Positions 4,100 through 61,071 of a stretch of DNA of 64,000 nucleotides are shown piece by piece. Numbering within the stretch: the first letter of the stretch is position 1; every line of letters begins with the position of its first letter. This DNA is from Letharia columbiana (Eukaryota > Ascomycota > Lecanoromycetes > Lecanorales > Parmeliaceae): the NCBI RefSeq assembly GCF_014066305.1, contig NW_023501036.1, forward strand, positions 1,437,501 to 1,501,500, in the 5' to 3' direction. The notes under the pieces are model-generated. The model was not told the DNA's origin. It saw only the letters and a program-made list of their open reading frames with translations, and did no database searches. Made by a program: the position numbers and the translations under genes.

Positions 4100-5734
4100 A
4101 TGAAGCTCAATATCCTCTTGGCCGTCGGCGGTCTGTCATGCTTTGCAGCTGCTCAGTCAACTCAGTCCATTACATATCAGAATCTGACATATGCAAATGT
4201 TCGCCGCGATTCTGGCTTAACCGGTCCACCAGTTGAAGAAGTCCATTATTACTATGATCAATGGCCAATCGGACTGGCGGTTTCAAAGCAAGGTCGCATT
4301 TTCGTCTGTTATACAAGGGGAACATACGTTAGTGAACCTTATCGCCTTACCATATGCTTCAGATGACTGAGTACCTTCTAGGCATACACCTTGGGCGAGG
4401 TCTTCAATACTACAGCCGAAGTCCCCTATCCAAACCTAGAATTAAATACTCCTCCCGGAGGCCTGTCTACTTCACTTAACGGTATCCCTTTCGGTAGCAA
4501 CTCTACGGACAGCTTCATTAGCGTTCAAGCCCTGTTCATTACTCCCGATGATACGCTCTGGGTTCTCGATACTGGAAGACCCAGCACGAACGAGACAGAA
4601 ATGCTTACCATGCCATACGCGTCTCCTGGCGGGCCAAAGCTGGTAGCTCTCAATCTGACGAGTAATTCAATCATTCGAACCTACAATTTCCCGTCAAGCG
4701 TTCACTTTCCAGATTCCTACATGAACGACCTCCGATTTGATATGCGTGCGAACGCCACGGCATCAGGCAAGGGCATAGCGTACATCAATGACAGCAGCAA
4801 CGAGGGCCGTACGGGCTTTATCATGCTCGATCTTGGTACCGGACAGTCATGGCGCCAGCTAACCCAGCATCCAGTACGTGTATTTCGAGTTTATATATCC
4901 TCTTTTGGACCAGATCTTGAGCCTTTAGACATATCTTGAGAGTGTATACTCTGTAGACATGTTCCAAGGCTCAACACACCCTCTCGGATAGGCGACGCTG
5001 ACTCTGAAACCATGTCCTAGTCTACACTCCGAACTTTCGAGGATGTGCCTTCATATCAAGGAATGCCCTTCTATCAACGCAGTCCCGGCTTGGCTCTGAC
5101 CAATATCCAGGAAGGGCTCGATGGCATCGAGCTCTCCTTGTACGGCGACGTGATGTACTATTCACCTCTGACAAGCGACTATCTCTACAGCATTGAAACG
5201 CAGTATCTCCGTTCGAATCCCATGGATGACGTCCTAAGCTCGCAACGAGCATCGAATAATGTCAAAAGCCTTGGCCAGCGAGGCGGGAACGCCAATGGTT
5301 TCAGCGCCGACAGTAACGGAGCTGTGTACATGCGTAAGTTATACTTTCCGAGGCATTTCTTCCCCATCCATGCTGTCTTATGAGTCGTCAGACGTGCCTA
5401 AAGAGTTCTCTGCTCCTAAGACATGTCTCGCGACTCAGAATTCCTTCCTAAGGACTAATGCTGACTCCAAAATCATCAAGTCATGCCGGAGCAGAACGCC
5501 ATTTACATTTACAACTCCACGACGTTGCAGGCGGAGCCGTATGTTCGGGATCCACGAATCATTTGGCCCGATTCATCGAACGTTGGATTCGATGGCTACA
5601 TCTACTTCAACATCAATCAGTTGCCTTACCAGCCTGATTGGAACAACGGCACTGATTTGAGGCAGTACCCGGGACTAATACTAAGATCCAAATTGCCAAA
5701 CAATGGAACCAAAAGTACTGTGCTAGCAGCTTAG
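4100..5734 (+). CDS. Secreted major royal jelly/yellow-family protein
   Basis: Exons 4100-4327, 4382-4873, 5021-5333 and 5481-5734 join to 428 aa with no internal stop. Residues 1-19 (MKLNILLAVGGLSCFAAAQ) form a signal peptide. The rest has the six-blade propeller blocks of the MRJP/yellow family: QWPIGLAVSKQGRIFVCY, LWVLDTGRP, the SYMNDLRFD strand, GTGQSWR, DGIELS...YYSPLTSDYLY and NANGFSADSNGAVYM. N-glycosylation sites (NxS/T) are frequent, fitting secretion. In fungi the substrate of this family is not known. The first intron is an ordinary 54 nt. The second and third are both exactly 147 nt and belong to the introner-like family described separately. The start was chosen because it opens directly on the signal peptide; an upstream frame to 3998 is also open. 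Confidence 0.88.
4874..5020 (+). repeat. Introner-like intron, copy 1 (147 nt)
   Basis: The GT-AG intron begins GTACGTGTATTTCGAG, carries two GACATR-TT/CTTG core motifs, and ends GCTGACTCTGAAACC...CCTAG. It shares start, core and branch-region words with the introns at 5334, 55921, 57553 and 60720. It sits between phase-0 codons of the MRJP gene. Confidence 0.75.
5334..5480 (+). repeat. Introner-like intron, copy 2 (147 nt)
   Basis: This GT-AG intron is the same length as copy 1. It contains AAGACATGTCTCGCGACTC and, near the 3' end, AATGCTGACTCCAAAATC. The 5' end (GTAAGTTATACTTTCCGAGG) is more diverged than in other copies. It interrupts the MRJP gene after the first base of a Leu codon. Confidence 0.72.
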
Positions 5735-5872
5735 AAGTGTGCTCATGGAACAGCAGCATGAATATTGTACATAAATCCAATCAGAAAGAAGCTAATGCTG
5801 TACTTCTACATGTGCATTGATTGTCAAACCTGAAATGGCTCCAACCAATCTTGTAGCGAAACACCACGGCTT

Positions 5873-8574
5873 TTATTCGATATGAGCAGAGCTCATGGCG
5901 TTTGCAAACATCTCTCGACATCGAACTCTAGCCCCCAATTTTGCACACAGCAAAAAAGCCCCACTCAGTTTCCGATGCAAACTATACGTCTCCTCCGGTG
6001 GTGGCGCCAGCCTTTCCCTTACCATCACGGGTATGAACCCCCTCACCCTATCCGTAATCGTCTGATCCCGAAAATCGTAGACCTCTGCTGCATTCTCGGC
6101 GAACGGTTCCGCAAGCGTCAATACGGAACCGACATGCGCGTTGAGCATAGCCTGACTTTCATGCCCCGTCAAATACCCCAATTGAATGCTCAAGTCGCGG
6201 ACGGCAGCGCGGTCGCAGCGAGAAGCAGCGAGCAGGGTGCGGATGTAGGGCTCTATGAAATGGTCCGGAAATTCTCGGCTGGCTCCGAAATCAAGGAGCT
6301 CGAGTTTGTGAGTTGAGGCGTTGTAGAGGAAATTTGTCCAATTGGGATCGGTCTGCATGAACTTGAACTCTGTGATCTCGCGCAGGCAGAGACGTAGTAT
6401 CTGGGTGCCGATCCAGTCTCGTTGCTCTTGAGTGAAGTTTTGGACTTTGGTTACACCGGTGCCGTGGAGGAATTCTGCGGTTAGGACTTGTGGGCCAGAG
6501 GCTTCGGATATGATAGTTGGTACGTGGAAGACATCTTCTTCATCAGCGAGAAGACCACGAAAGCGTTCGCCCATCTCGGCTTCGCGGACGTAATCGCATT
6601 CCCAGGCTAGTTCGGTTCGGGCGTTCGCAATCGTCTTGTCTAGGAAGAGGCCTTTGGGGAGAAGGCGGGACGCGGTGAGAAGTATGGAGAGGTTCGAGAG
6701 GTCGCTATCGATGGAGTCGGCGACGCCTGGGTATTGGACCTTCACTGCGACACGCTGGCCTGAGGATTTCAGAATAGCGCTGTGGACTTGGCCAATGGAT
6801 GCGGCTGCTAGAGGCTTTTCGTCGAAAGAGGAGAAGAGATCGCGCCAATCTGCGCCGAGGTTACTTGCAAGAACTTTGTTACGTTGAGAAGCGGGCATGT
6901 AGTCGGCGCTGTCTTGGACTCGTTGCAAAACTTCGTTGATCGGTCCTGGCAGCATTCTCGAATCTTTGGCGAGCATGAGCGATTGTGCAGGGAGTAGTAG
7001 GTGGTGACCGACCTTGAAAGCTCATCATCTGCCCCAATTTCAGGGCCGCACCTCGCATCCTGGATAGCTTGGCCACGAGTCTTTCCATATTGCCAGCGCT
7101 GAGCATCAAAGACCCAACAGCATCACCACTGCCTCCTGTAGCGCGACGGAGGCTTTCGCCAACTGCCCCAAAAGCCATGGACGTGGCTAGACCTCCGTAT
7201 TGCCAAAATCTGCCAAACCGAGAAGACGGCACCCGAGATTCTTGCATCCTGTATGGAGGTTTTGTTGGACCTGGTTCAAGGTCTGTTGGTAGCTAGGAAA
7301 ACGCTGTCAGTCAATCAGTATCCAAATTATGAATATGTCTCGTACGAAACTTGCCTGAGACGGATCCGCGGACCTGGCTTCCGCGTCTTCGGCCATGTCT
7401 GTGATTAGGTCGTGCATATCCTCGCTGCTCTTGGCTTGAGAAGGCGTTGAATCTACGATCCCGGCTGGCGGATTTTGAGCTCCGTCTTGACTCTCTTGTC
7501 CTGATGTCCGAACACTGGATGAGACCTGGTCCTTCTCATGTAGAGGCTTGCTCGGCTTGGGGTGACCACCCAACATCCTAGCTACCCTTGGACTGTGAAA
7601 CAACTCGGTGTACGCTTCGTCGGAAAGTCGCTCTTGCTCTGGAACAGCTTGTGCTTGCGGAACGGGCCGTTCTTCATTTTTAGAAGATGCAGAGGAGAAG
7701 ACATCTTGATTGATTTGAGCATCAGAGACATGCTTATCACTTTCTTGGGCGTCTTCCGTATCCTTTGGCACTGTGACACGCGGCAGAGCTGAATGTACCT
7801 GTCCATCTGATGACAAAGGCGTGTAGAAGACATCCCAATCTTGATCTGCTTTCAAATCTAGCTCCTCAGAATGGGCGGGAAGGTGAAAGCTCAACAGCCT
7901 GAAATAGGGTCCGCTTTTCTGCCTGCCGTTGTAGGGTTTTAGATTTCTCAGCGATCACAGGATCTGTTCCCTTTTGGATTTGGAATACTCGTTCTGCCTG
8001 ATAGAGTGGGCTGTAGGCCCTCGTCTGTCTCCTCTCTTCCATCAGCTAACGGGGCTTTCGCGGGTTCTGTTTGCGGCAACTCGTTGTATGAGTCTTTATC
8101 TCGCTCTGGCACTTCAGCAGTATCTGCTGGAAGCATTGATCCATCGGGTAGCGGGTATCTTTTCGCCTTTTCTTGCCTCACACCTAGATTAGCATCTGGT
8201 GGAGGATCCGCAGCAGCATTCTGGTCTGGTCTTTCGTAGAAATGATCCTGGGAAAGACCATCCTTCTTCACCGATCCCTCGGTTGTCCCAGAAGCCCCAT
8301 CTTGACTGGGTATGGGCGCACCCTGGGTAGACTTTCTTGGTTGCGAAGCCTGCGTAGAATAATCGGGTTCGGGTCCATTGAAACGTTCTGCCAAAACCGA
8401 GGCAGCTTTCACCGTGAGGGTGACTCGGTCAGTCTGTGACTTAACAGCTTTAGCAAGAGAGGATGTCTTGCTGTAAACGTCCAACTGGTGTTGGCGGAGG
8501 GCGACATGCTTTGCAGCAACGCCTTGGGAAGCCTTGAATATGGCTGCTATATCAAGGAGGCGTCTTCCGGTCAT
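5873..8574 (-). CDS. coq8: COQ8/ABC1-family atypical kinase (ubiquinone biosynthesis)
   Basis: The product is the mitochondrial UbiB/COQ8 kinase-like ATPase that supports coenzyme Q assembly. Exons on the minus strand are 7346-8574, 7013-7292 and 5873-6963, with introns of 53 nt (7293-7345) and 49 nt (6964-7012). The N-terminus ([13 protein letters not shown]...) suits mitochondrial import. Core motifs are the KxGQ helix [11 protein letters not shown], the Ala-rich loop AAASIGQVH, the catalytic Lys in VAVKVQYPG, and [21 protein letters not shown] and [10 protein letters not shown]. Exon 1 contains two one-base frame breaks, near 7961-7976 (after NPKG) and about 7873-7915 (before [11 protein letters not shown]). 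Each is cured by dropping one base, giving about 865 aa. Both lie in the variable linker, not the kinase core. They could be errors or true lesions. Confidence 0.9.
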
Positions 8575-9003
8575 CGCAGAGCGCTTCCAACGTAATACGG
8601 CCTGTATAGCGTCTCCATGGAAATCTCTGCAATCATGAAAATATGCAGTTCATGCAAGCTGTTCGACCATGGTCTCTACTAATTAGTGACGGTCAATAGT
8701 GCAGCTTTGCCGACAGCAGACAGAACTTGAAACAGCAAGCGGAGCCGGCGTAGATCATCTCAGGTTCCAACAAGTATAAAAGTATCAACGTCTGTCTGTC
8801 AGCACTAGAATTCCAACAACAAATGTTCCTTTGAGCATCTCTCCCTACGCCGTTTCTGATAGCAGCTTGGACTGTGGGCACTCTCATCTCGATGTTGCCG
8901 TCTAAACCGTCAGCTTCCTTGCGCACTCGCCATTGCCAGTGCCTTTGAACCGACGCTCGAGGTTCCACTGCTGGGAGAGCGAGCTGGCCTACTCCCTTCA
9001 CCC
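8575..9003. promoter_or_regulatory. Divergent promoter region, coq8 and mid1
   Basis: 429 bp lie between two divergent start codons. No clear TATA box or repeat was seen. Short open frames here are not convincing. Confidence 0.5.
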
Positions 9004-10924
9004 ATGCGACTACCTAGGAGCGCGTATCTTCCGCAACGAACAGTGCCCTCGCCCCTTGCCTCTTTTCCCCTTCTTCTCGCCTCTACAGCCGCTCTGTTCA
9101 CTCAACATGCCTTTGCAGCACACGAGGACTCGATAACCCATAAGGATGACAACCACCCACGATCACATAGTGCTTTTGAGGTTGATGTAGGACATAATCT
9201 AGAAAGATATGAGCCAGAGTTCGCTGGCGCTGATCGAAGCATCATCGGCAGAGCTGGAGAAGTCATTCCAGCATTGGGGAACAATGCCCCAGGCATCCTG
9301 AATATTGGTCAAAGCGCTAGCCAATACTGGACTTTTCCCAGTACAACGTTATTTGGACCCAACTCGCCTCAGACACCTGGCCTTCCATCATACTTCGAGG
9401 GGCAAAACGTCTCTGTCACTCCAGATGCCCCAGGCGAAATCGAACTCTACATAAGTCTTACGACTTGCGAGCAGCCGCTTGCGACAGACCCTAATCAAAC
9501 TGCTGCCCCAGATCAGTTGATGCTCTACGTTTCAACATCTTCCAACAATCAACAGCCTGATCAGAAAAATTGTGATCATGTCGTGCTAATTGTTGGGGGC
9601 TTTGGCTGGTTGAACATATCCGTCAAGAATGATGTATATTTTGGGGTCTATGCTCCTGCAAATGAGGGCTATGATGGGGTCTATAACTATCAGCTCACGG
9701 CATCTATTGATGGCTTTTATGCCTCTTCATACAGCGACCCCAATGTTAAACTTGTTGATAGCGACACAAATTCCGCGCTCCTCTACACGAACAATACAAC
9801 CAGTACCACGAATTCCTCAAATTCTACGTTTCAGCAATGGATGAACAGACCACCAGTGTTTAGCTTGTTCGTGCAGAATCAGGACAATCCTTCCATACTC
9901 GGCGTGCAGAACTCAGTATGCGGATTGCAAAATCTGGCACAGATCCAAGGTCTCCCAGATGTCGAAACTGTTATGACAGCAGCTGGTGATAGCCTACCAA
10001 AACAACAATTCTATGTAAAGAATCTTAACTGGAGCTCGACATATTACGCCGTAGCAGCTATGATTGGCAACTCCACAGACCAAGGGTCCGGCGTCGTGGG
10101 TGGTGGAGGCACAGTGTGGAAGCCATCAAATATCACGACCAAGTCTTGTTAGTCCTTCGACATTCACCTGCCCTATTGCTGAATCTAACAGCGTTATTCC
10201 AGACGACAATTGCGCCCTTCTCTTCAACCTGCCCTTTTGCACTTCCGTTGCATACGCTGCTCCGGCTAATCCTAATACTTTCAACTCAACAGAACTTCTC
10301 GCTCACCACTACGATCAATACGCTCTTGGTATCTATCAAAACTTTACGAACTCACTCCAACAAATTCCGTGCAACACTACATCCTCCGCTCAGTATTCGC
10401 TTGCCAGAAACTGTAGCGATTGCGACGCCGCTTACAGACAGTGGCTTTGCGCGGTCACTATACCCAGATGCGAGGATATCTCGAATCCGGCTCCGTACAT
10501 GCAGCCCAGGGCGGTGAATCATTCATTCATCAACTCATCCTACGCAATTGCTGGGATTAATGGGGACTTGGCATTCAGCCCGCATAACCGCAGTAGGATC
10601 TCCTTCAACAGCAGTCGTAACCCCATGATTGATGCTGTAATCCGACCTGGTCCGTATAAGGAGCTGCTACCATGCAAAGACATATGTTATAACCTCATCC
10701 GGAGTTGTCCCGCTGCTTTGCAATTCGCATGTCCCTTAGAAGGGCATGGCTTGAATTACAGTTACGGAAGTCCTCATCCCGGGGGTGAGGTTAGGTGGTG
10801 CAACAGCCCATGGACGGGCATAAGTGGAGCTGCTGGCCTGAGGGTGACGAAAGTCGTGACGTTCTGTGCAGCTTTGGCTGCGGCGTTCTTGGCCACGACG
10901 TTATCAAATGGGTGTAGGATCTAG
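9004..10924 (+). CDS. mid1: Mid1-type stretch-activated calcium channel subunit
   Basis: Exons 9004-10147 and 10203-10924 join to 621 aa; the 55-nt intron is 10148-10202. Mid1 pairs with the Cch1 channel in the plasma membrane for high-affinity calcium uptake during stress and polar growth. The N-terminus has a hydrophobic signal segment (about residues 15-38). The middle is a Ser/Thr/Asn-rich extracellular region with many NxS/T sites (e.g. NNTTSTTNSSNSTF). The C-terminal third is the Cys-rich Mid1 domain (DNCALLFNLPFC, RNCSDCDAAYRQWLCAVTIP, LPCKDICYNLIRSCP). A hydrophobic tail near the end resembles a GPI or membrane anchor. The second of two AG acceptors was chosen because it restores the conserved DNCAL block. 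Confidence 0.92.
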
Positions 10925-11788
10925 CCCGCAAACATCAACTTTCGACCGAGACTCTGAGTTTTGGCGGCGCTTCGACTTTCGGATCGGGAGGATATGGTGC
11001 AAACACTAGGATGGTCATCACCATCATCAGCAAGGCTTTGCTCTTTGCTCCAGGTTGGTCCCTGTTGTCGACAGATACCTCGCGAATGGTCGAAGTGTGC
11101 TCGAGTTCTAGCTTGAGCTACTATTTGTGGGACTACAATGCTGAAGGTTGCCTGCCACCCTTAGTTGTGTCCGGCTTGAAAGTACTCGGGAACTCTACTT
11201 TGATCCAAAGCCTGCGTTTGGGGCATTTCCGCACCTAGAGAGCTTCGATTTAGGGACGCTCTTAGGGTTCCAGCCACCCCGATTGCCGCCCGTGGTCCGG
11301 GACCTTTCTCCTCCAGGTTGCTCACGACCTTAACGTTACCTCTTCGCTCAACTGGTCATGATTCGCAATATACATGATGAAGTACGATCTTTGCGTTTAC
11401 AATCATGAGAGATCCTGTCACCTAAGACGTTGGCAATTGATGGATTTGAAATCAAGACTCATCCCGTCCAGCCAATCCTTTAATCCTAGACGTGAAATCA
11501 AGTTCCGAGACTTGTGGCAGGATATGTGGAAAGGCAAAGGCAAGCAGGACGGTCATGGGCTACCATTCCGGCCTATAGTGCCTCTGACAGACTCTTTCCT
11601 GGACACGAGACTTCCGTCACTGCCGGATTGGCTGGCTGCTAGAGCATTTTAATAATTTGACTCCTCCCTACTCTTGTATAGGCATCGTGCCTTGTACTTC
11701 CGAAACCCATACCGTCCAACTTCTCTCATTCAACATCGTCTTCTTTCTTCTCCCTCCCTCTTCCTCCATCTTGCTATCCACTTGAACA
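10925..11788. other. Intergenic region, mid1 to Pth11-like gene
   Basis: Short open frames at 11011-11333 hint at Leu-rich, F-box-like sequence split over two frames (GCLPPLVVSGLKVL, then FPHLESFDLGTLLG). Another open frame at 11374-11652 (92 codons) has no recognised motif. I cannot support a functional gene and regard this as a possible decayed gene. A pyrimidine-rich leader follows at 11700-11785. Confidence 0.35.
11700..11788 (+). promoter_or_regulatory. Pyrimidine-rich leader before the Pth11-like start
   Basis: CT-rich sequence (CTTCTTTCTTCTCCCTCCCT and similar) runs into the start codon at 11789. Such tracts commonly mark the transcription start region in filamentous fungi. No TATA box was seen. 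Confidence 0.4.
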
Positions 11789-13166
11789 ATGTCTGTCCCA
11801 TTGCCCCCAAACGAAAGTCGTGGACCCAGCCTAATCGCTAATCAATGGATCACCGTGTCCATTGCATCATTGCTCGTTTTGTTGCGTGTGTATACTCGAG
11901 CATTTCTCCGTAAAGCAGCAGGCGCCGATGACTGGACGATCGTGATTGCTATGGTAAGCTGATCCACAGGAAGTCCCTCCGAGACAGTTGCCCGCTAACG
12001 GCATCCTTCAGGGCTTTGCTGTTGCCCAGGGCATCGTCACAACCTTTGGGGTGGACAACGGGTTTGGACGACATATCGAGTACTTACAGCCTGACCAGAT
12101 CAGGAATGTCCTTCTCATGACTCAAATCCTTGAGGTTCTCTATACTATTGGGACCTTTCTCGTCAGAGTCTCTGTGTGTCTCTTGGTTCTACGTATGGTA
12201 CCTCCCACACACCGGGAATTCTTCAAGTACACATACATCTTCCTCGCATTCTTCGCCGTCATGAGCACTGCTACTTTGCTGTCCATCCTCCTCGCATGTA
12301 TCCCGATTCAGGGTACGTGGGACAGGGAAATCAAGGCGCGTTGCATCCCACCCTTAGATTTGACCATCATCGCCAAGACCCAGTGTGGCATGTGGCTCCA
12401 CATCTTGGAATCTGAATAAACACTGATGCGGACTCAGGTGCCGCGGCCTTGATGGACTTCCTGTGCGTCGGCCTGCCCATATTCTTCCTCCGGAATCTAC
12501 AGGCGAAACTCGGCCGGAAGATCAGTCTTTTCGTCCTCCTCGGACTTGGCCTCTTGTGAGATGCCACGAGACACCGGTCAAAGCTGCGAGACTGACATCC
12601 TAGAAGCACTGCCGCATGCGCGATTCTCAGAGCCACGTCCGTCGACTTCGCAGACAAGGACTTTACCTGTAAGCATTGCGTCTCGTCCAGACCTAAACCA
12701 AAAGCATCAAAATCCTGTCTCGATGTTGACACGTCGTCTCTCAGGGCACACCGTGCCCGTGGTGTTCTGGTCTTGCCTCGAACAGAATATCGGCATCATC
12801 GTCGCCTCTACCCCCGCCGCCCATCAGCTGTATACCCTCATCCTTCAAAAATACTTCCCCCACTGCGTCAACAACCAGCCCTACCTCCGCTCCCTGGGAC
12901 TTCGTACCTCGTCCGGTTACGCAAACACGAGCGATGGATCGCACCATTATAAGATACGGCTCGGTAGCCGAGGTAGCCAGAGTATGGGGATGATGTCGAA
13001 TGCGGGGAGTGGTGGTGGTTGTGGTGGAACGATCTTACCAGGGCCGCCAAGCCCGACAAAGAAGGAACCTAGGACGGATTATGATAAAGCTTTGTTGGAT
13101 ACCAGTCCCAAGTTAGGGCAAGCTGCGAAGCAGGATGAGGAGTCTTCCTATCTAGGTTTATGCTGA
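11789..13166 (+). CDS. Pth11-like / rhodopsin-domain integral membrane protein
   Basis: Exons 11789-11953, 12012-12384, 12438-12555, 12604-12668 and 12745-13166 join to 380 aa. The order fits the fungal SAT4/Pth11-like seven-helix family: ANQWITVSIASLLVLLRVYTR, GADDWTIVIAM, FAVAQGIVTTFGVDNGFGRH, then helices around ILEVLYTIGTFLVRVSVCLLVLRM, IFLAFFAVMSTATLLSI, AALMDFLCVGLPIFFL and IGIIVASTPAAHQLY. The cytoplasmic tail is Gly/Ser/Pro-rich. Members are linked to surface sensing and host or nutrient signalling, but the ligand here cannot be told. Four small introns (48-76 nt) were placed by frame and conserved helix continuity. The donor at 12385 (T|GTGGCA) is weak, so the third junction is the least certain. 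Confidence 0.8.
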
Positions 13167-13823
13167 GTTCGGCGCAGGAGGTACATAGATAAATTGGAAG
13201 GAGGCGTGGAGGGGGAGGCGCCAATGGTTGAAGCTTGAAGCTTGAAGCATCAAATGTTAAATTGACTCATGGTTAAACGTCCTTGTACCAGCATTCGCTG
13301 CTCCTCGGTACCGTGTTCCCACACTCTGACCCACCTCGTGCGAAAGCACCTCATTGATGCCTCTTCTTCGTTGCTCTTGCCCTTTAACTCCTGCAGCCCT
13401 CAACGGAAACCTCTCCCAAAGAGTCGATTGTTGAGTCTCTCAAGCGCTACAAGCCGTCCACAACCTCAATGCAAAATTGCATCAGTGTAATCAATGACGG
13501 CGTAGTGATGGAAGTGCCGTCGCAGACATGACTGAGAGGTTAGAGAGTCTCAGAGACTAGAGATACTCAAGAGAGGAGCCTCGCAGATGACGACGTTCTT
13601 GACTGTTACGGCTCAGAGATCAGATAAAATTGGTTGCAGGAAAGCGAAGTTGGAGCCGGTATCGTTCGGAGATTCTTCGAACTCTCGGACAACAAGGGCA
13701 TATAGCATCACGTCAGGAGCCGTATACCGTATGTTCTTATGCGTGGGTATTTTTCCTTCAATTGAAGATAGACATGGTTGCTCGCTTGCTCAGAGAATCA
13801 TGCCCATGTCAGAGTAGCATCCA
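13167..13823. other. Convergent intergenic region, Pth11-like gene and GABA transaminase
   Basis: The region holds the 3' flanks of two convergent genes. A short tandem TTGAAGC repeat (about three copies) occurs near 13228-13247. No convincing gene was found. Confidence 0.45.
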
Positions 13824-23719: not shown

Positions 23720-23988
23720 TATGAAGGTTTAAATTCTCCCACGCAAAACGTGGTTCATCAAGAATTAAGGTGTCGCTCACCGTAGGGAGTAAGAGGCTGA
23801 AAGGAGAAGGAGAGCACGCCTGCAAAGGGTTAGCGGCATTTAACCGAAGAATATCCGATCTAGAGTACAAGAATGGTGGAAGACTGGGTCTCGGAGTTGC
23901 TCGTTATTGTAAAACTTATCCACTTCTTAATCTATAAAATTGGCTTACTTCAGACCATCCATTCTTACGAGTATCACAACCTCACAAA

Positions 23989-49958: not shown

Positions 49959-51107
49959 AGGAGGAAAAAATTGTGCACGCTTTGGAAGGTGCACATGGAA
50001 TTTTGCATAGCGATGGCGCAAAGAGTGTGATATGCCAAGAGCCGCGCTTTTATGTACAGTACCGTTAGATCTTCTTGGGTGTCAATGCGAGACTCCGGAT
50101 CGAGAAACGAAGGCCCGAGCAGCTCGCTTGAGCTGCACCAGACACTGTTGAAGCTCGAATCCGTCCATCCATCCGAACCGTGACCTACCACCGCCTCCGC
50201 TTCTACCCCCCCGATGGAAACCTACCCGATCTCAGCCACCTCTCCGTCCCTCTCCGTCCATGATCCCGTTGGATAAGCGGCCGTAAAGTTCGAGCTACGC
50301 AGCAGGTGTTGACAAGTTGTAGAACCGGCCGGTATAGAGAGCTACTTGTAGTCCGCACGGCCAAGAATTCCCGCCCGCGTTCTTGGAGGCCACGGTGCCC
50401 CGAGTCTTGTCCCACTGAACGTGCGACGCCGTGCCCGGATTGGCGGAACGATGATCCGCATCCGGGGCTGAAGTTGGTGTTTCCTTCCCATGCGCAAGAG
50501 TCGATTGATTTCGGTGCCCGTTTTGGCCATCCGTTGTTGCTGAACGAGGTCTTTGCGCGGTGGGACGACGTGGTCCATTGACCGTGGCGTGGGGGTTGCT
50601 AGCAAAGGGCTGGGTGGACCTGGTAGCTGCGGATGAAAAAGAAGGATCGGTGGTTTTGGCTACATGGTACATGGTTATGATCCCGGAACTCGGGTTCGTG
50701 CGATAACGGGAAAGAAGGGTGCAGGAACGTGGCGCTGGTGGTGTTGACGAGGGTCCGTGAAGCTGGCGTGTCTTCGCTTTTGGGAGGTTCGTTCGCTAGG
50801 GATAAGAGGGAGCTGTTGGAAAGGGGAGAAGGATTGGGTGCTGGTCTCTGTCGTTTTAATGGTTCGTTTTTGGGTATGGAACCGTCTGGATGTGTCATGG
50901 ATGGACGGAAAGCGATTGGTGTTTCATTGAAGAGCTGCTATTGTCTATGTCTTGAGGATCTGTATCGCACTGCTGCCATTGTTCTCTGGCATCTCGCCTG
51001 GCGCAAGTCATTCGTTCTCGATGCTCTAAACGTACCCCGTTCACAACGCCCTGTTCACCGTAATGGAAACCGAGACCGCAGGGAAACGCCAGCTAGCCGA
51101 GTCCTAG
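49959..51107. other. Convergent intergenic region, sac3 and BTB gene
   Basis: 1.15 kb with several mid-length open frames on both strands (for example 50729-51166 plus, 50295-50672 minus, 50599-50898 minus). They are Pro/Ser/Arg-rich, show no known motif and cannot be joined by good splice sites. I treat them as chance frames in GC-rich sequence. Confidence 0.4.
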
Positions 51108-52079
51108 TCATTCCCGTGCCATCGCTTTTCTATCCTCCAAGTAATCTTCAGTCAGATCGCAGCTAGCTCCCTCGTGCTCGTGAAAAGAGCAGATAGCTCC
51201 TGTTTTGGTCCAGTCGGTTGGGGGGAGATCATTCACCCACCGGTAGGCAAACAAATTGGCCATAGACAGCACAAAACCTGCATGGTAGCTTATACCATCT
51301 CCAGCGTCGTAGATGCCGTCGGTGTTGTCGCAGAAAAGTTGCAGAAGTAGTTGACAGAAGTTGGACTCTTTCGGCAAGGTCTCCCAGGCCATGTTTATGC
51401 CTTCCATAGGTCCTCCCACATCATCCGGCCCATCCGCTGCCCAGTACATCTTGCAATGGCCTTTATCAGTAGAGCTGAAACCGTAAACCTCAACCAATGC
51501 CGTAATGCCAGCATCTTTCAAGCGTGGAACCTGAAGTGCGTCGGCCAGAATGTACAGAGCGATGAGAGAAGCGAATGGAAGGTCGCGATAGTTAGCATGC
51601 TCCCACAACTTTCGGTGTGGATTAGTGAGTGGGAGCCATTCTGCATGTAGCAACTTTCGAGATATCACTTCTGAGCGCACTTTATTTGTCAACTCCTTCA
51701 GAGATGGATTGAGCGACTTTGAGTAATGAAAACCTCTGAGACTGCCGGTGTACAGCCAATAGACGAAGTACTTGAAGGTCGCAGGATCCTCCTCAGGAAG
51801 CGTGAGTGTTCCATCGTCGGCCTCCTTGAAGTTACCGGTGAATGCTGCCTTAAAGAAGTCGGATCGACTGCAGATGAGGCGCTTGTGTATTTCAAAGCGT
51901 TGCTTTACAGGACCGACGAGCACGACCACCATGGTGTCATAAAGGAACCTTGGTATCGATTAGCGTTGTTCGAAGATGGCCTTGGCCAGAATCCAGATAA
52001 CTTACGGGGTTTGCTCATCGGCGCTCTCCTGCTTTGGAGACCCTTCGTCGGTCGCTGCTGCTGATTGCGTTCCGGTCAT
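51108..52079 (-). CDS. BTB/POZ-domain protein
   Basis: The exons are 52006-52079 and 51108-51948 on the minus strand, 304 aa. The 57-nt intron (51949-52005, GTAAGT...CCAAG) joins a Ser/Glu-rich leader to TPFLYDTMVVVLVG, the first BTB strand. The BTB fold (about residues 25-105) shows RFEIHKRLICSRSDFFKAAF, GNFKEADDGTLTLPEEDPAT and FKYFVYWLYTGSL. The C-terminal region (LIALYILADALQVPRLKDAG...LFAYRWVNDLPP) resembles the helical extension of many fungal BTB proteins. These often act as cullin-3 adaptors or simple dimerisers, but no partner domain (MATH, Kelch, zinc finger) is present. The function is unknown. Confidence 0.85.
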
Positions 52080-52413
52080 GTTGTGTTGTCGCTGAAGATT
52101 GCTTCGTATTGGAAGGCAATCTAGTTGCTAGGTCGGAATCAGGATCATGTAGGATTGTGAACTTGTATGCTGGTATCCGAGGCCTGAAACGGCCGTTATC
52201 AATATTTGTTCATGGCGACGCCAACGACCCTACGCCTTTATGACACTCAGTCTGGCTTCACGAAGTCCCTAGTTTGCTAATTTCGCGAACAGTGTTTCTG
52301 AGGAACCTGCTGCGGAAGGCCGTTGTAATTGCTCAAGGTGTGTAATATCCTCGGTCACGCCCCTTCTGGAAGTCTAATGGAACCCGTAAAGGAGCAAATG
52401 GATGACCTCGGTC
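52080..52413. promoter_or_regulatory. BTB gene promoter and nta1 3' flank
   Basis: 334 bp between two minus-strand genes. Nothing distinctive was seen. Confidence 0.45.
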
Positions 52414-53446
52414 TCATTCTGCGAGCTCTTTATCACGGGATTGCAACCGTAGAGCCCACTTCGGCTCCTTCTCCGTATCTGCAACAACGACACCCTCTTC
52501 CGCTCTTCCCATAATGTCCCAGATCTTGACAACCCCGTTTCCTACTTTCCCAATCCAGGAACTTCCAGCATACCTCACGCCCTCCTCAATGCCTAGTGGG
52601 TTCTTGCCCGCTTCTTGCCCGCATCTGTTCCCAAATACTGCAATCACTTCCTTCTCCGCTTCCACAAGCGGTTTCAGCCTTCCCACCCAATAGCTCAATG
52701 TAGATAAATCCGGTTCCTCTGCATGAGCAGCCAACTCTAAGGCATCCAACCCTGTCAGCCAGGCCATTGAGAGTACAAGCAACTCCGACCCAGAAGCCAG
52801 AGCGTGAGATGCAAACTCATACGCTTCCCACGGAGCCTCGAATTTGTGTGGGTTCAGGTCCATGCATATGCCAAAATTCGCCCGTACACCCCGCTCTGGG
52901 CAAGTCTTAGGAGCGAATGTCAAAGAGGTTGAGAGCCATCCTGACGGTGATTCTTGAGCCCATGTTTCATCCGTGTAGTAAAGATGCGTCTTGCGGTAAT
53001 GGGCCAAAATTTGGCTGGTGGGGGAGACAGTGACTGTGGAATTATAGGCTATGGCTTCCCCGGCAGGCGAGAGGTCTTGAGTCTTTGTGCTGGAAGCAGG
53101 GGGTGGGGTGCAGAGCTCGGGGTAGCCGACTGTGACAATGCAATTGAGACGGCTGGCGGTCGCCCTGGCCCAATTTGTGGAGGGACCAGAGGCGGTGGGT
53201 TCGAGGTGGGGCAATATGGACGAGAAGGAAGGGTAATTGTACCCTGTCTAGTAATCAATGAGATGAACATTGGGCTCGGAATAGAACAGGACGAGGTGAA
53301 GAGGTAGTACCTGTGAAAGCGAGCTCGGGAAGAACTAGTAGGTCAATGTTTTGCGGAGATGCTGCCTCCAGTAGGGCGTTAACGCGGGCGATGTTCTCAG
53401 GAAGCCTGCCTAGCTCAGGGTTGAATTGTAGGCAGGCTATGCGCAT
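52414..53446 (-). CDS. Carbon-nitrogen hydrolase, Nta1-like N-terminal amidase
   Basis: The exons are 53311-53446 and 52414-53243 on the minus strand, 321 aa. The 67-nt intron (53244-53310) joins LPELAFTG to YNYPSF. The nitrilase-fold Glu-Lys-Cys triad is visible: Glu in LLVLPELAFTG, Lys in AHYRKTHLYYTDE, and Cys in ANFGICMDLNPHKFEAPWE. The DLNPHKFEAPW context and the length suggest Nta1, which deamidates N-terminal Asn and Gln to feed the Arg/N-degron pathway. The conserved SWIGKVGNGVVKIWDIMGR end agrees. The start at 53446 (MRIACLQFNPELG) matches the usual first strand; an upstream ATG at 53524 is also open. Confidence 0.87.
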
Positions 53447-53979
53447 GTTGCGCGAAACCCTGGAAGAAGAGAGGATGAAGCTTTGGAGTTGAAGATGAAG
53501 ATCAAAGGATCTGCTGCAGCCCAAGTTGTAGCTACCTATCTACTCTCACCATCACCATGATAGATGTCTATAATGAAGCTCTAATATGTATGCTATCATA
53601 GCCCAAAACGAGCTTACCAGATTTCTTTGGAACATCTTTTGGTGCGTTCAGTATAGTTGGGAAGGAAAAGCACTAGGAACGGACGACCATAGGTCTGGTC
53701 ACACCAATGGAGACTTTACTTTGCAATTCTACCACTACTCTCCGGTCTATTTGTCTGATAGGCACCCTCGGAATATTGTACAATGTAGACCATAAGCTAC
53801 GCCTTCAAAGCCGATATAGGCATGCTTTGACCCCAACTAAACGTCTTCCCCCGTGCGGCTCCATTCCCCGTATAGGCTTGCTCTTGCACGCTCCTCAAAG
53901 CATCTTCTACATCCGGTTCACGAAGCTGCTCCCTTGAAGGTATAACATATCGTGGAGTACCTTCTACCTCCACGGAAGG
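53447..53979. other. Intergenic region between nta1 and the F-box-like gene
   Basis: 533 bp between minus-strand genes. It contains the nta1 promoter. No gene or repeat was recognised. Confidence 0.45.
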
Positions 53980-55361
53980 TCAGACTAATGGTGCAGTAGT
54001 TGACGGCCATACGTTCTTCTTTATTTGGCATCGTGCCTCAATTCCGACCAGTCTGCAATAGAAATTTAGCTTTGAAACACGGTGCAGACTCCCTAAACAT
54101 ACCCTGGACCCACGAAACCAGAATTTCTCAAGCGCTTACTATCCCAAAAAGCGTAACCAAGGCTTCGTGTAGTGTGTCGAATTCCGTGCGGAGAAACGAA
54201 ATGAGTATTACCATACACGCAAAGCCAACCTTCGTTTGATCCATCAATGGTGTCTTTAAATGGGAAAAGGTTATTGCGGGCAACTGCGTGAATGTAATTG
54301 TGAATCAGATTGCTATCTTTGCGGGACATCTCTTTCCAAAATCCTTCCAATGCAGTTGATAGAGAACGCTTCTGCCCGTCGTAATAGATATGAGAAGACA
54401 TCTCCCGCTGCATATTCAAACGGTCGAGTCGGAGAGCATGGTGTAAGAACGGTAAGCTCAAATTCGATAGGTAATCCGTGTATAGGCTATGGATCTGGAA
54501 TTTGGCTTCACGTAACGCTGCTGACCGCTCGTAGGATCGAAAACTGGTGATTGCCGCAGGTTCCAATGGCGGCTCAGGCAACTGGATGCCTACGAAACTG
54601 GACTCGATCCGATCGAAAGAGTTGGAGAGCAGGGAGCAGCGGTAATCTTCGACGCAAGCTAGCTCCTCGATCTCCCACTGCTGATAATTTTCCAAGAAGA
54701 AGTGAGAATCTGACGGAAGTTCCCACAATTTTTCTCCGCTGTACTCCATGTCCGAACTAAAGATATTTGTGTATAATTCGTACCGAAAGAACGCTCGCTG
54801 AAGGCGGCCCTCCTCCACATCGGAAAGAGGGGCATAGCAGTGGTCTCGGTCTATAGGATGGCTTCTCCAGAGGCCGTTGGATTTCGGTAGGACAATGCAA
54901 CCATCTTGTGGCGAGGTGTGGTTCTGAACAAATGCGGTGTCTCTGCATCGACGAAGGTAGTAATTCGACCGACTAGTCAGATCCTCGATGAAGTACTGCG
55001 TGGATTGGTACAGCTGGCACAAGGGCACCGCTATAGGTAGTGAATAGTGCTGCCCTTTTTGTTCAACAGTTTTGTGTCTCTTGTTCTCATAAGTTCGCAG
55101 AAAAGCCAGGACAGCCTTTCGGTCCGGGCCTACGTCTTTGAGTTGCGAGGCTTGCACAGCCGCCAAAGCATCGATGAATGCTGCAGGTCTGATCCTTCGG
55201 CGCATAAGTGAGATGAGGATTGTTTCTTTTGACGCCAAAAAGACTTGATAAGCTTTGGGCGAGGCTCGTATCAGCGAGTAGAGAGTTTGAGTGGTGGGAA
55301 GCTCAAGCAGTATTGGCGTGATAAGCTCGGCGGAAAGCCTATCAAAATGGTTGCGTTCCAT
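53980..55361 (-). CDS. F-box-like fungal protein, uncharacterised
   Basis: The exons are 54103-55361 and 53980-54052 on the minus strand, 443 aa. The 50-nt intron (54053-54102) has a strong GTATGT donor and TTGCAG acceptor. If it is unspliced the frame stops after GPGYV. The N-terminus (DRLSAELITPILLELPTTQT, LYSLIRASPKAYQVFLASKE) has the leucine/proline pattern of a degenerate F-box, which would dock Skp1 in an SCF ubiquitin ligase. No known substrate-binding repeat follows. The body is a long conserved-looking region with many aromatic residues, such as GLGYAFWDSKRLR-type endings seen in expanded fungal families. The specific role is unknown. It opens the accessory stretch to the right. Confidence 0.68.
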
Positions 55362-55854
55362 GTTGCTGGTGAGAAGAGTGGAATGGGAAAGGAAGAGATG
55401 CGAAGACGTAGGTCAACTGAGGCAGTGTTGAGGAGGACAATAGTTGGAAGCGCCAGAATCAAACATAGACGCGTTCCAAAGAGTCGGTCTGTTGATGTGA
55501 CCAAGCCTGCGTAAGGAAGAAGATTTTCGCGGTCGTCTGCTGAATCTGGACCTGGATCAAATGGTATGGACTTGATTCACAAGAGTGTCGAGGGCACCAA
55601 CACAGCAGGCTAGAATACCAAATTAAGAGCAGCATAAAGGCTCAGCACCCAGCACTGTCCAGATTGCCCAAACCGGTTGGCGGCAAGTACTTCGATCGTT
55701 GCTAAGGCGCCAGTTACAGTTCACGAAGGTAGCCCATGTTTTTACTAAATATTGGCGGCTATTTTGGCAACATATTTACACAATGAATATAGTGAGATCT
55801 CAGATCCGCTGATCAGCCACATCTCAACACCCACCTTGTGTTTTCACAAGAGAG
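55362..55854. other. Intergenic region, F-box-like gene and GH5 gene
   Basis: 493 bp between minus-strand genes. A near-palindrome AGTGAGATCTCAGATCCGCTGATC lies at about 55790-55813. No gene was seen. Confidence 0.4.
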
Positions 55855-58243
<2,389 letters not shown>

Positions 58244-58940
58244 GTTGATTTAGAACGGTGAAACGAAATTTGCCTTGAGGGACAAATGATATATTTACAG
58301 GCACTGCCTGATTGTAAATGAAGGAGAAGAATTGAAGGCTTGATGACAAGGTAATGACCGTGGTATTCGAACAGCGAAAAAGTGACCAAAAGCAAATAGA
58401 CCAATCACAAAGGACAGTGGGAAGCTCAAGAGGCAAAGAAAGAGGATTCGCGAAAGGATTGAAAGAGGGAGGAAGTAGAAAAGGAGACGGAGTGAGCGGC
58501 CATGGTATCTGATACCAGTGCATGCAGCATCGCCGCACGGTCAGCGATTCTGGTTGACCTGAGACGATGACCCCTCAATTATTATCAGCATGCTGGCTCC
58601 TTCCACAAGCCTTGCTGTCCCTTAATCTCATGGAATAGATACCTTGTTTACCTTAGATAAATTTGTCAAGCAAATCAGGCGTGTTGGAGGGAGAGAGAGA
58701 GAAGGGCGGGAAAGTGAAAGTCATCTCCGACGAGGCGCTGAGAGCGGCCTCTGCCCCTGAAAAAAGAAACTTCGGCGTCGTTTCGTCCCCCAGTCAATTA
58801 ATTTTCTTCTTTTTCTGCTCCAGCTGTCGAAATTCTGAGCCAAGTGTGGCATTCAGTACCAATTACTACGAGTAACCCTCACACATATCATCCGTCTTGG
58901 GACGACTCTTTGCAGCTGCCCGCCTTGATGCTTGTGCATG
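58244..58940. promoter_or_regulatory. GH5 promoter region up to the transposon
   Basis: About 700 bp upstream of the GH5 start. It is A/G-rich on the plus strand near 58430-58490, with a GAGAGAGAGAG stretch at 58690-58702. No gene was seen. Confidence 0.45.
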
Positions 58941-58953
58941 CCAGAACGGCTAT

Positions 58954-58997
58954 GGGATTCTTACAAATTCATACCCCATCTTACATTTTCATACCCC
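58954..58997 (+). repeat. Left 44-bp terminal inverted repeat
   Basis: It begins GGGATTCTTACAAATTCATA and contains two inverted copies of the 18-bp motif spaced 20 bp apart. It pairs with 59427-59470. Confidence 0.85.
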
Positions 58998-59010
58998 TCA
59001 CCAAAAAAAT

Positions 59011-59088
59011 GGGGTATGAATCTGTAAGTTGCCAGTCCTTGGGGTATGAATTTGTAAGTTACCATTTCTTGGAGTATGAAAATATAAG
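59011..59088 (+). repeat. Left subterminal 30-bp tandem repeats, three units
   Basis: GGGGTATGAATCTGTAAG, GGGGTATGAATTTGTAAG and GGAGTATGAAAATATAAG start at 59011, 59041 and 59071. Each is followed by a variant of TTACCATTTCTT. Confidence 0.85.
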
Positions 59089-59132
59089 ATACCATCAACT
59101 TGTAGATTTAGTTATCCTTACACCGGCTGAGA

Positions 59133-59207
59133 GGCTAAAAAGCTATACCTGGGGGTGTCTACACTTCACGCTATAGATAAGATACCCCCGGGTATAGCTT
59201 TTTAGTC
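59133..59207. repeat. Central inverted repeat (26-bp arms)
   Basis: The arm GGCTAAAAAGCTATACC... at 59133-59158 is repeated in reverse complement at 59182-59207 with few mismatches. It should form a strong hairpin in the middle of the element. Confidence 0.8.
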
Positions 59208-59426
59208 TAGCGGTAACTCGGGCTGCTAATAGGCTATCGGGTTACCGGCTCAAGGCGGGTATTATGCTACCTACCTACCCCATTACGCCCCGAAATCTTA
59301 CCCCAAAACTCCGTCCCTATTTGATGCTAACGCTACCCGCGAGAAAAAGATAATAATTCCAGGTTACTATGGTAACTTACAAAATCATACCCCTATTAAT
59401 GGTATCTTACAAATTCATACCCCATT

Positions 59427-59470
59427 GGGGTATGAGAGTGTAAGATGGGGTATGAATTTGTAAGAATCCC
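59427..59470 (-). repeat. Right 44-bp terminal inverted repeat
   Basis: It ends TGAATTTGTAAGAATCCC and is the reverse complement of the left repeat with two mismatches. A further 30 bp with one more motif copy (59478) lies between it and the flanking repeat. Confidence 0.85.
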
Positions 59471-59772
59471 ACAGTTTGGGGTATGATTTTGTAATTTGCC
59501 CCAGAACGGAGCCTTGACATTAATCCTTTAGATCATGACGCATGAATAGAGGTGGTGGAGGGAAACCTTGGAAGGCAAGGAGTTGAACCGTCGCAAGTCC
59601 CACAGATCGTTGCATGAGGATCACTACATTTTGAGCGTTAAACCGGGGGGAAAACAAATTCTCGTCGGTCTGAACTGGCAAACTAGCCGCAGTGGGACTT
59701 GAATATTCGAGGTTCCCTCTATTCACGACTTCTCACTTTTAACCCATTATCTTACTACCCACGACTCTCGCA

Positions 59773-61071
59773 ATGGCCAAAACAGGCTTTATTGAAGTCG
59801 ATGAAGGCCGGCTCTTCTGGAAATACGATCCCCCAGTGGACCACGAGGACAGCGCCGACAGCGGCCCTCGTCCACGCCCAGTATTGCTATTGATTCATGT
59901 AACCACCCTTTCTGGTTCATGTCTTCCACTTTTTATTCCTTTTCGAGTCCAAAGACAAGTTTGAGGAGTATGTACACATGGTCTACTCCTCGGAAAGTCC
60001 TTCAAACTCAAGAACGCGTCTGCAAAAGGGAATGCTGATTCTGAATTGCTGTAGTCGGGTGTCTCAGACCATACAGTGTCAGCAAACCCGATTCCCAGAC
60101 CGAGAATCCGTCCAAACTCATCTTCTGCAGATGGGATGAGCAAGTAATATACTACACAGCTAGAGGTTGGTATTTGCTAAGATTCGACCTGCTCGGATAT
60201 GGCCAGCCGCTACCCAGTGAGAGCTATGTCCAGAGAGGCTGCACTCCTGCTGTGAAGCATCATGATCATGCACTGGCGGTTATAAAAGAGTATAGTCTTT
60301 GCAGAGGCCGTGCAGCTATTGATGATAAATTCGTAGTGATCGGACTGAGTCGAGGCGCGAGTACGGATCTCAACAAGACTATATTGGATTCGCCTGACAT
60401 GAGACAGATCACGCTGTCGACTTCGCTTTGCAACCTCCGCATCTCATTGCCGGGCTTGTTTTATGCGCGGGTGGACTAGGGGGCTTTGACTTCGCCGATA
60501 CCACGCAGGAAATTTCAATGTTTGAACGCTATGACGATTTTATAGGTAAAGGAGACGCTCACAGCGCTGCGATGATGAATGTGATGATTTGGGGTCGAGG
60601 TACTCAAAGTCATAACGACGGTCGGCTTTCGAGAGTGGTAGCAGACAAACTCTTTGACTGGTATAGAATGATAGCTCAACGAGAGATCGCAGGGAACGAA
60701 GGCTCCGCAATTCCTGCTGGTACGTACATTTCGGAGCTGATCCTCTTCGTTTGATTGAAATTGAGTCCCAAGACATGTTTTGGGAGCAAGAGGACCTTTC
60801 TACTTGTGGGACTTGTCTTGCTAACCCCAATATTCACGTAGAGGACCTCAAGCCAGCCGCAGCAGGAAGACTGTCCGACATCAGCGTCCCAAGCATGGTG
60901 GCATATGGAAGGTACGATGAGACCAGCACGAATGAAGCAATGAAATACGCTGCTCAACGAATACCTGGCGCGAAGCTGAAAGAGTTCGACATCGCGCACA
61001 TGATCAACTTGGAAAGTCCCTCGGAGTTCAACAACTGGTTAGAGGCATATCTGGATCAATTTCTCCTTTAA
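59773..61071 (+). CDS. Alpha/beta-fold hydrolase
   Basis: Exons 59773-59898, 60055-60077, 60131-60360, 60408-60719 and 60842-61071 join to 306 aa. The fold is clear: LLLIHSGVSDHTVWDEQV (oxyanion strand), RGWYLLRFDLLGYGQ, the nucleophile elbow VVIGLSRGAN (Ser about residue 123), LIAGLVLCAGGLGGFD, MVAYGRYDETS (acid) and FDIAHMINLE (catalytic His). It is a typical single-domain fungal hydrolase without a signal peptide. The substrate cannot be told. The second exon is only 23 nt. The first (156 nt) and fourth (122 nt) introns resemble the introner-like family, while the second and third (53 and 47 nt) are ordinary. It starts about 260 bp from the right end of the transposon. Confidence 0.88.
59899..60054 (+). 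repeat. Diverged introner-like intron, copy 7 (156 nt)
   Basis: It contains CGAGTCCAAAGACAAGTTTG, similar to the core of copy 8, and ends AATGCTGATTCTGAATTGCTG TAG. The 5' end (GTAACCACCC) has lost the family word, though GTATGTACACATGG occurs inside. Probably an old copy. Confidence 0.5.
60720..60841 (+). repeat. Introner-like intron, copy 8 (122 nt)
   Basis: It starts GTACGTACATTTCGGAGC, identical over 18 bases to copy 3 in the GH5 gene. It continues GAGTCCCAAGACATGTTTTG, GCAAGAGGACCTTTCTACT and CTTGTCTTGC, then ends CACGTAG. The 3' third is shorter than in copy 3. Confidence 0.8.

Follow-up and report, generated by a model that had tools for sequence, protein, structure and literature searches.

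Related long introns, very probably introner-like elements, in the genome of the lichen-forming ascomycete Letharia columbiana

Long related introns in three genes of the window

The window, a stretch of 64,000 nucleotides of the Letharia columbiana genome, contains three genes that are interrupted by long, mutually related introns (Table 1). The spliced model of the MRJP-family gene encodes 428 amino acids (PF03022, 4.7e-27) and that of the alpha/beta-hydrolase gene 306 amino acids (Abhydrolase_1, PF00561, 2.4e-13). The catalytic part of the GH5 product comprises 404 amino acids after splicing and matches Pfam Cellulase (PF00150, 1.4e-13), while residues 19–403 of this part align to solved exo-1,3-beta-glucanases (3o6a, 7.6e-66). 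The start of the GH5 gene is uncertain, as there is a frame break near position 57780. An Rfam scan of the window gave no matches.

Table 1. Host genes and putative introners in the window
Feature	Coordinates	Strand	Length (nt)	Phase	Description	Profile score (bits)
MRJP-family gene	4100..5734	+			contains i1, i2 and ordinary intron 4328-4381	
i1	4874..5020	+	147	0	putative introner, MRJP gene; GTACGT...TAG; diverged	45.6
i2	5334..5480	+	147	1	putative family B introner, MRJP gene; GTAAGT...AAG	149.8
GH5 exo-1,3-beta-glucanase-like gene	55855..58243	-			contains i3-i6 and ordinary introns 56854-56933, 56125-56182	
i3	55921..56080	-	160	0	putative family A introner, GH5 gene	140.5
i4	57081..57198	-	118	2	putative degraded introner, GH5 gene	12.3 (model 69-155)
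i5	57279..57432	-	154	0	putative degraded introner, GH5 gene	17.7 (model 5-149)
i6	57553..57699	-	147	0	putative introner within RGVNIGGW motif, GH5 gene	34.5
alpha/beta-hydrolase gene	59773..61071	+			contains i7, i8 and ordinary introns 60078-60130, 60361-60407	
i7	59899..60054	+	156	0	putative introner, hydrolase gene	31.0
i8	60720..60841	+	122	1	putative shortened family A introner, hydrolase gene	85.9

A sequence-only reading of the window had proposed these eight introns as relatives of one another. Indeed, all eight of its positions proved to be exact intron ends in the spliced gene models, and excision of the eight introns restores the MRJP, GH5 and alpha/beta-hydrolase proteins. The reading frame is restored by a single excision for each intron, so that the nested two-intron layout of a [D1,2] stwintron does not apply. 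We scored the introns with profiles built from other loci, using 100 dinucleotide shuffles of each intron as the control. Every intron scored above all 100 of its own shuffles, contrary to an outcome that the earlier reading had named as refuting, scores no better than those of shuffled introns; five short introns (47–80 nt) of the same three genes scored 0. By profile score, i4 and i5 were the weakest of the eight. Genomic matches, each count including the intron itself, numbered 11 for i6, while 40 were scored for i2, i3 and i8 among 59, 77 and 47 candidates, respectively; the remaining matches of i2 were 82–88% identical to it.

A genome-wide intron family and its insertion sites

The words that the earlier reading had described as shared by the eight introns are present in the window with 0–3 mismatches. 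They are real, but they turned out to be segments of a single inverted repeat that spans the element, and to come from two or more sister families that differ at their ends, A (~155 nt) and B (~147 nt). With 1–3 mismatches, the core and 3′ words are also found at a few sites beyond the eight introns. Genome-wide, the 3′ words of families A and B gave 138 and 68 matches, respectively, at up to three mismatches, versus 0 and 0 for the reversed controls, in agreement with the predicted tens to hundreds of hits. The 5′ word gave 167 matches at up to two mismatches versus 11 for its reversed control; in some of these matches the word falls on the other end of the same element, as read on the opposite strand. 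The retrieved genomic segments held 153 unique copies, 117 of them near full length, and we estimate that the genome carries about two hundred copies of the family or more. The exact 3′ word of family A had no match in a viral and none in a prokaryote collection.

Similarity among the copies starts at GT and stops at AG, and the flanks beyond are nearly random. The donor (mostly GTACGT), the branch word GCTGAC and the acceptor (mostly TAG or CAG in family A, AAG in family B) are carried in the element; both donor and acceptor words lie inside the conserved part, and no splice site is co-opted from the target. Mean identity was 78% in family A (50 copies) and 84% in family B (39 copies), values by which the copies appear fairly old, while the best pair in each family was 97% identical with unrelated flanks. 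A portion of the copies have diverged or depart from the usual length. Neighbouring copies less than 1 kb apart shared the strand in 31 of 31 cases. The accessory genes to which the family had been assigned, MRJP, GH5 and the hydrolase, are indeed hosts, but this description was too narrow, since copies also reside in the genes for aconitase, NOG1, photolyase and phosphomannose isomerase. Repeat-induced point mutation was rejected as a contributor, as C-to-T changes at CpA were not in excess (5.5% versus 9.2% in A; 3.4% versus 6.2% in B). The joined flanks of eight copies (of 16 flank pairs prepared), compared with this assembly, revealed no empty allele.

The coding context of the copies bears on their splicing and on the earlier reading's expectation that nearly all of them fill introns exactly. 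With 60-nt flanks an open-frame test was weak (122 of 138 copies versus 106 and 99 in shifted controls), and we therefore adopted codon scoring and longer flanks. Codon scoring with 60-nt flanks assigned 31 of 138 copies to the sense-same and 18 to the sense-shifted class. With 120-nt flanks, the coding frame across the junction was continuous in sense for 42 of 90 copies and in sense but shifted for 6, the other 42 being without a call; the 42 to 6 division differs from an expectation of one in three (binomial p 1e-14), and the random control for frame continuity gave 274 versus 305. In addition, ten spliced pieces, hand-picked from 86 for long frames and a familiar look, all contained a Pfam domain, and in 8 of the 10 a listed domain match spans the junction. 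Judging from these reading frames, the copies are presumably spliced.

Furthermore, relatives were compared at the protein level, through translated frames and proteins. The i1 and i2 sites are unbroken in P0153, P0152, P0154, P0162 and P0201, of which P0153 also translates the ordinary intron neighbouring i1. Likewise, the i3 site is unbroken in P0075, which also translates a nearby ordinary intron. Unbroken sites in frames that read through an ordinary intron show that i1, i2 and i3 were gained at new positions. The i8 site is unbroken in P0126, P0127, P0128 and P0130, which are likely raw frames, and is thus probably empty in these relatives. For i7, inspection by eye indicated that protein P0142 of Letharia lupina picks up again, in another frame, at the same acceptor or beside it. 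The relatives P0001 and P0148–P0150 were uninformative on introner sites, because they cross the sites of ordinary introns as well and may be spliced predictions or transcripts. The presence/absence pattern suggested by the sequence-only reading was thereby borne out at the i1–i3 sites and probably at i8. Its proposal of introner-like elements is likewise supported, in view of some two hundred or more copies in unrelated genes with internal splice sites and empty sites in relatives.

Inverted repeat, predicted hairpin and a proposed route of copying

Along its entire length the element forms an imperfect inverted repeat, with imperfect terminal repeats that read TACGTACATTTCGGAG at one end and TACGCAGATTTCGGAG from the other. 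Among copies drawn from those above 100 bits, self-complementarity exceeded z = 3 in 29 of 30 A copies and 23 of 30 B copies versus 2 of 60 controls, and the folding z-score was below -2 in 24 of 30 A, 13 of 30 B and 1 of 60 control sequences. The family A consensus is predicted to fold as one hairpin of 55 pairs; RNAalifold on A1 returned another fold, which was weaker and had 23 pairs, of which 1 was compensated. When the hairpin pairs were counted on 27 copies, 8 were compensated versus 9.1 expected, which is no excess. Compensatory cells numbered 18 versus 14.3 expected (a count reached by 79 of 500 shuffles), and the covariation score was 0.139 versus 0.131 (reached by 40 of 500 shuffles). 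In slid versions of the hairpin, as many as 15 pairs showed changes on both sides. These counts therefore lend no support to selection on the fold. At the junctions of 61 A and 40 B copies, no target-site duplication of 2–8 nt was clearly above the permuted expectation; the largest excess, seen for duplications of 3 nt, was 2 versus 0.9, and z rose to 3.5 at a single isolated pair of positions.

Introns of filamentous fungi commonly carry the splice motifs GTACGT and CTGAC, and ordinary introns might resemble one another through such signals and base composition. This reading is hardly credible, and we rejected it: none of the 100 shuffles reached any of the eight scores, the ordinary introns of the same genes scored 0, and the long words were matched 138 and 68 times versus not at all when reversed. 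Insertion of a repeat into introns that already existed, the likeness then being that of the repeat and not of the intron, would account for diverged copies and odd lengths. However, similarity is bounded by GT and AG between nearly random flanks, which makes this very improbable in general, and for i1, i2 and i3 it was rejected, as relatives lack any intron there.

A non-autonomous DNA transposon, that is, a MITE-like introner whose repeats are transposase-binding ends and whose splice signals are incidental to the movement of DNA, deserves more weight. Its terminal repeats would be at hand, pairing that is conserved without covariation is as expected for inherited transposon ends, and most non-ascomycete introner families bear signs of DNA transposition, according to the available parts of a survey (PMC9860276). 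Nevertheless, we consider it rather unlikely, given that no clear duplication is found at the junctions, both splice sites lie within the element, the symmetry spans the full length and close neighbours lie on the same strand.

We therefore favour the view that these are, very probably, introner-like elements, mobile spliceosomal introns that multiplied in this member of the Parmeliaceae; an RNA-mediated route of copying is the likeliest and seems somewhat more probable than not. Each copy carries the whole intron, with donor, branch word and acceptor, and would insert into an exon without target duplication, in sense wherever a call was possible, to be presumably spliced out and later to decay. 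Since the inverted repeat is full-length, the excised RNA should form one long hairpin, in which the terminal G's would be brought together. This RNA may then enter the genome, either through reverse splicing or through being captured at a break, and be turned into DNA.

Relation to known introners and implications

Introner-like elements of Dothideomycetes were reportedly described by van der Burgt in 2012. The sequence-only reading had taken that class as its setting, but the host here is a lichenised Lecanoromycete. As far as the accessible text of Collemare 2015 (PMC4457414) goes, elements of Fulvia fulva, Dothistroma and Zymoseptoria are likewise spliceosomal introns that recur in unrelated genes and exceed ordinary introns in length, with a predicted stable structure, several families per genome, several copies per gene and new positions. 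The likeness is at the level of description, and identity is 97% at best here (mean 78–84%), whereas 98–99% is cited there for active families. Symmetrical sister stwintrons and cropped sister introns are known in Hypoxylaceae (Fekete 2021, PMC8469720; 2025, PMC12403724). In the portions available of these papers, they share terminal or near-terminal inverted repeats, a fold that joins the terminal G's, and seamless insertion without target-site duplication. Unlike nested twin introns, those of the window are single; the fungal class differs, the likeness again being descriptive, and copies number some two hundred or more versus a cited total of 48 related introns in Hypoxylon sp. CO27-5. The DNA-transposon introners of Micromonas, Aureococcus and others, as excerpted from PMC9860276, also have terminal inverted repeats and create an intron upon insertion; in contrast, the elements described here show no clear target-site duplication, carry both splice sites and borrow none.

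In the open-access literature we found no report of introners for lichens or Lecanoromycetes. A large introner family in a lichen fungus offers a new lineage for the study of intron birth and bears on the long-standing question of the origin of spliceosomal introns. It also provides an ascomycete example of an inverted repeat that clearly spans the full element; the large 2022 survey, in its accessible parts, reported ascomycete introners to be without terminal inverted repeats (PMC9860276). As other Letharia genomes are in print, according to the available text of PMC10512270, the presence or absence of each copy is directly scorable. Tentatively, and with more doubt than confidence, self-complementary hairpin introners might represent a shared ascomycete route of making introns without DNA transposition, the hairpin RNA being the mobile form and leaving no target duplication. 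If this hairpin-RNA reading is true, the description of ascomycete introners as devoid of inverted repeats would have to be revised, and lichen fungi would be a further reservoir besides Capnodiales and Xylariales.

Long introns of the three window genes

The sequence-only reading had proposed a family of introner-like elements in three genes, and each of its eight intron positions proved to be an exact intron end in our rebuilt gene models. In Pfam, the spliced proteins matched MRJP (for a product of 428 aa), Cellulase and Abhydrolase_1. Solved exo-1,3-beta-glucanases aligned with the catalytic part of the GH5 protein over its length, and the RGVNIGGW motif of this gene is interrupted by i6. 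The signal-peptide/serine-rich part and the catalytic part of the GH5 gene lie in different frames, which could stem from a misassembly, from an intron that was missed or from a gene that is broken. The window also holds a MITE-like stretch with outer inverted repeats of 48 nt (94% complementary) and more inverted copies of the word GGGGTATGAATTTGTAAG internally.

Features of the window, with the symmetry z of the long introns
Feature	Gene	Position	Strand	Symmetry z
Long intron i1	MRJP	4874-5020	plus	4.8
Long intron i2	MRJP	5334-5480	plus	3.3
Ordinary intron (54 nt)	MRJP		plus	
Long intron i3	GH5	55921-56080	minus	4.4
Ordinary intron	GH5	56125-56182	minus	
Ordinary intron	GH5	56854-56933	minus	
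Long intron i4	GH5	57081-57198	minus	1.7
Long intron i5	GH5	57279-57432	minus	2.4
Long intron i6	GH5	57553-57699	minus	2.8
Frame break	GH5	~57780	minus	
MITE-like stretch		58950-59474		
Long intron i7	hydrolase	59899-60054		3.5
Ordinary intron	hydrolase	60078-60130		
Ordinary intron	hydrolase	60361-60407		
Long intron i8	hydrolase	60720-60841		1.5

For scoring, profiles were built from 49 copies of one family (A) and 38 of another (B) from elsewhere in the genome, with the window copies left out. All eight long introns scored 12.3-149.8 bits, lowest in i4 and i5, and for each of them 100 dinucleotide shuffles all scored lower; the likeness noticed in the sequence is thus better than chance. 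The five ordinary introns of the three genes scored 0.

Two sister families across the genome

The search of the genome (52.24 Mb in 161 contigs) extended the family far beyond the window, into unrelated genes. Searches with three family words yielded 138, 68 and 167 matches, against 0, 0 and 11 for reversed-pattern controls. The 138-match word marks A and the 68-match word marks B, and since none of 134 fetched copies examined carried both, these matches represent ~206 places, a few duplicated segments included. Of the fetched copies, the two words caught 51 of 87 in A and 35 of 47 in B, so the true total may exceed 300, a figure extrapolated roughly and from copies that were in part selected by the same words. 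A 3'-end pattern gave 91 matches at 80 distinct places (manual count) versus 0 in the control, and the core word, with at most one mismatch, gave 195 matches versus 32 for its reversal; as the word is almost a palindrome, many places were scored once on each strand. When window introns served as DNA queries, matches were obtained for the best 40 of 77 candidates (i3), of 47 (i8) and of 59 (i2), and for 11 of 11 candidates with i6, each query itself included.

The fetched DNA contained 153 unique copies: 101 belonged to A and 52 to B, 117 were near full length, and a few may be halves of one long copy. The A and B consensus sequences are 66% identical, and we therefore regard A and B as sister families. 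An intron was definable in 138 of the 153 copies; the donor was GTACGT in 95 of them, and 96 had the branch word GCTGACT. The acceptor was TAG or CAG in 53 of 61 better-preserved A copies, whereas 34 of 40 well-preserved B copies had AAG; median lengths of better-preserved copies were 155 nt (A) and 147 nt (B). Three fetched pieces (L053, L082 and L088) hold a longer A version (~210-220 nt), apparently with a repeat of, or an interruption in, the middle part of the model. At L053:1278-1653, the TAG end of a long A copy (~220 nt) is followed directly by the first base of another A copy, which is better preserved, leaving no intervening exon.

Contig C34 of the assembly carried many copies at ~100-110, 210-230 and 281-291 kb, possibly a hot region. 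In two cases (L059/L060 on contigs C109 and C77; L106/L107 on C145 and C9) two contigs shared an introner together with its near flanks; either a segment was duplicated or two haplotypes were assembled separately. Triploid-like Letharia thalli have been described (PMC10512270).

Insertion into coding sequence and empty sites in relatives

Codon scoring of 120-nt flanks, taking the best of six frames on each side, was possible for 90 copies. Of these, 42 had a sense frame that ran on across the junction, 6 a sense frame that shifted, and 4 a continuous antisense frame; in the remaining 38 the two sides disagreed otherwise. Among 2000 random junctions, 274 were sense in the same frame and 305 sense but shifted, and the ratio of 42 to 6 departed from a one-in-three expectation (p 1e-14). 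The open-frame test undercounts, as illustrated by L052, the piece with the worst open frame: by eye, its copy appears to lie within a 21-nt exon of what we take to be a LYR-motif gene. Ten spliced pieces, hand-picked from 86 for long frames and a familiar look, all contained Pfam domains (photolyase, aconitase, MFS and sugar transporters, FMO-like, kinase, NOG1, phosphomannose isomerase and symporter). A listed match crossed the junction in eight; that of the symporter did not, and for the kinase the listing gave the first stretch. All 31 pairs of neighbouring copies with less than 1 kb between them shared a strand; six of these pairs, with gaps of at most 30 nt, may be halves of one copy. 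One opposite-strand pair, in L077, was 1065 nt apart.

Among named organisms, the closest relatives are lichen fungi, namely Pseudevernia consocians (Lecanorales, Parmeliaceae), Alectoria, Usnea and Letharia lupina. Part of the protein entries, those from certain unannotated sources, were translated without regard to introns, as raw open frames. Entry P0153 starts with exon 1 in another frame and a translated ordinary MRJP intron, and is therefore such a raw frame; it runs unbroken across the i1 and i2 sites, over which P0152, P0154, P0162 and P0201 are likewise continuous. P0075, with the ordinary GH5 intron translated at residue 368, is continuous over the i3 site. P0126, P0127, P0128 and P0130 start just past an ordinary intron, and are thus probably raw frames as well; they are continuous over the i8 site. 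No residues were gained or lost within 10 residues of the i1, i2, i3 and i8 sites. P0001 and P0148-P0150, which also cross ordinary intron sites and may be transcripts or spliced predictions, were set aside as uninformative, as was the named gene model P0170. At the protein level, the i1, i2 and i3 sites were empty in relatives and the i8 site probably so. Of the eight long introns, i1, i2 and i3 were thus gained rather than inherited and, by way of the probable raw frames, i8 probably was as well. L. lupina entry P0142 showed 2 differences over ~147 residues (by eye) from the unspliced stretches of the hydrolase gene and resumes at or beside the i7 acceptor, pointing to the presence of i7 in that species.

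The copies are fairly old, with a mean divergence from the consensus of 13% (A) and 9% (B). The closest pair in each family was 97% identical but lay in unrelated flanks, and eight joined flank pairs (of 16 prepared) revealed no empty allele in the assembly.

Predicted hairpin architecture and proposed mode of insertion

Copies that had not been oriented matched other copies in reverse complement. When compared with shuffles, 29 of 30 A copies and 23 of 30 B copies had a self-complementarity z above 3, as did 2 of 60 random controls; folding energy fell below z = -2 in 24 of 30, 13 of 30 and 1 of 60, respectively. Among the window introns, symmetry was not seen in i4 and i8, both of which are shortened. 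The predicted fold of the A consensus is a single hairpin with 55 pairs and a pairing sum of 152-154, so that it covers the whole element; the B fold is less regular (42 pairs). In 27 aligned A copies, 86% of cells pair in this hairpin; both-sided changes, at 8 pairs versus 9.1 in shuffles, were not in excess. The symmetry is therefore most simply an inheritance from the founders, which does not imply its upkeep in each copy.

The element brings both splice sites and inserts seamlessly at the protein level and in sense where resolvable, and its RNA would fold into a long hairpin. RNA-mediated insertion, whose copying steps we infer, fits these features; it could proceed by reverse splicing or by capture of the hairpin RNA at a DNA break, and has been proposed for the symmetrical introns of Hypoxylaceae (PMC8469720, PMC12403724). 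A DNA transposon that leaves no target duplications is a possible alternative. No duplication of 2-8 nt at the junctions clearly exceeded the permuted expectation (61 A and 40 B copies; largest excess 2 versus 0.9). The A sites had G at exon position -1 in 38 of 61 and A at +1 in 35 of 61, and the B sites had C at -2 in 23 of 40 and C at +2 in 22 of 40; no other base within six positions of the element was enriched at p < 0.001 in these copies.

Introner-like elements have been described in Dothideomycetes by Collemare 2015 (PMC4457414). According to Gozashti 2022 (PMC9860276), ascomycete families have neither inverted repeats nor target duplications; the family described here resembles them in the latter respect, but differs in having inverted repeats. 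Fekete 2021 (PMC8469720) notes, by citation, that the elements of Torriani and co-workers have inverted repeats and that those of van der Burgt have a stable structure; introner symmetry in itself is therefore not new. The literature searched, mostly by listings, yielded no published report of such a family in a lichen-forming Lecanoromycete.
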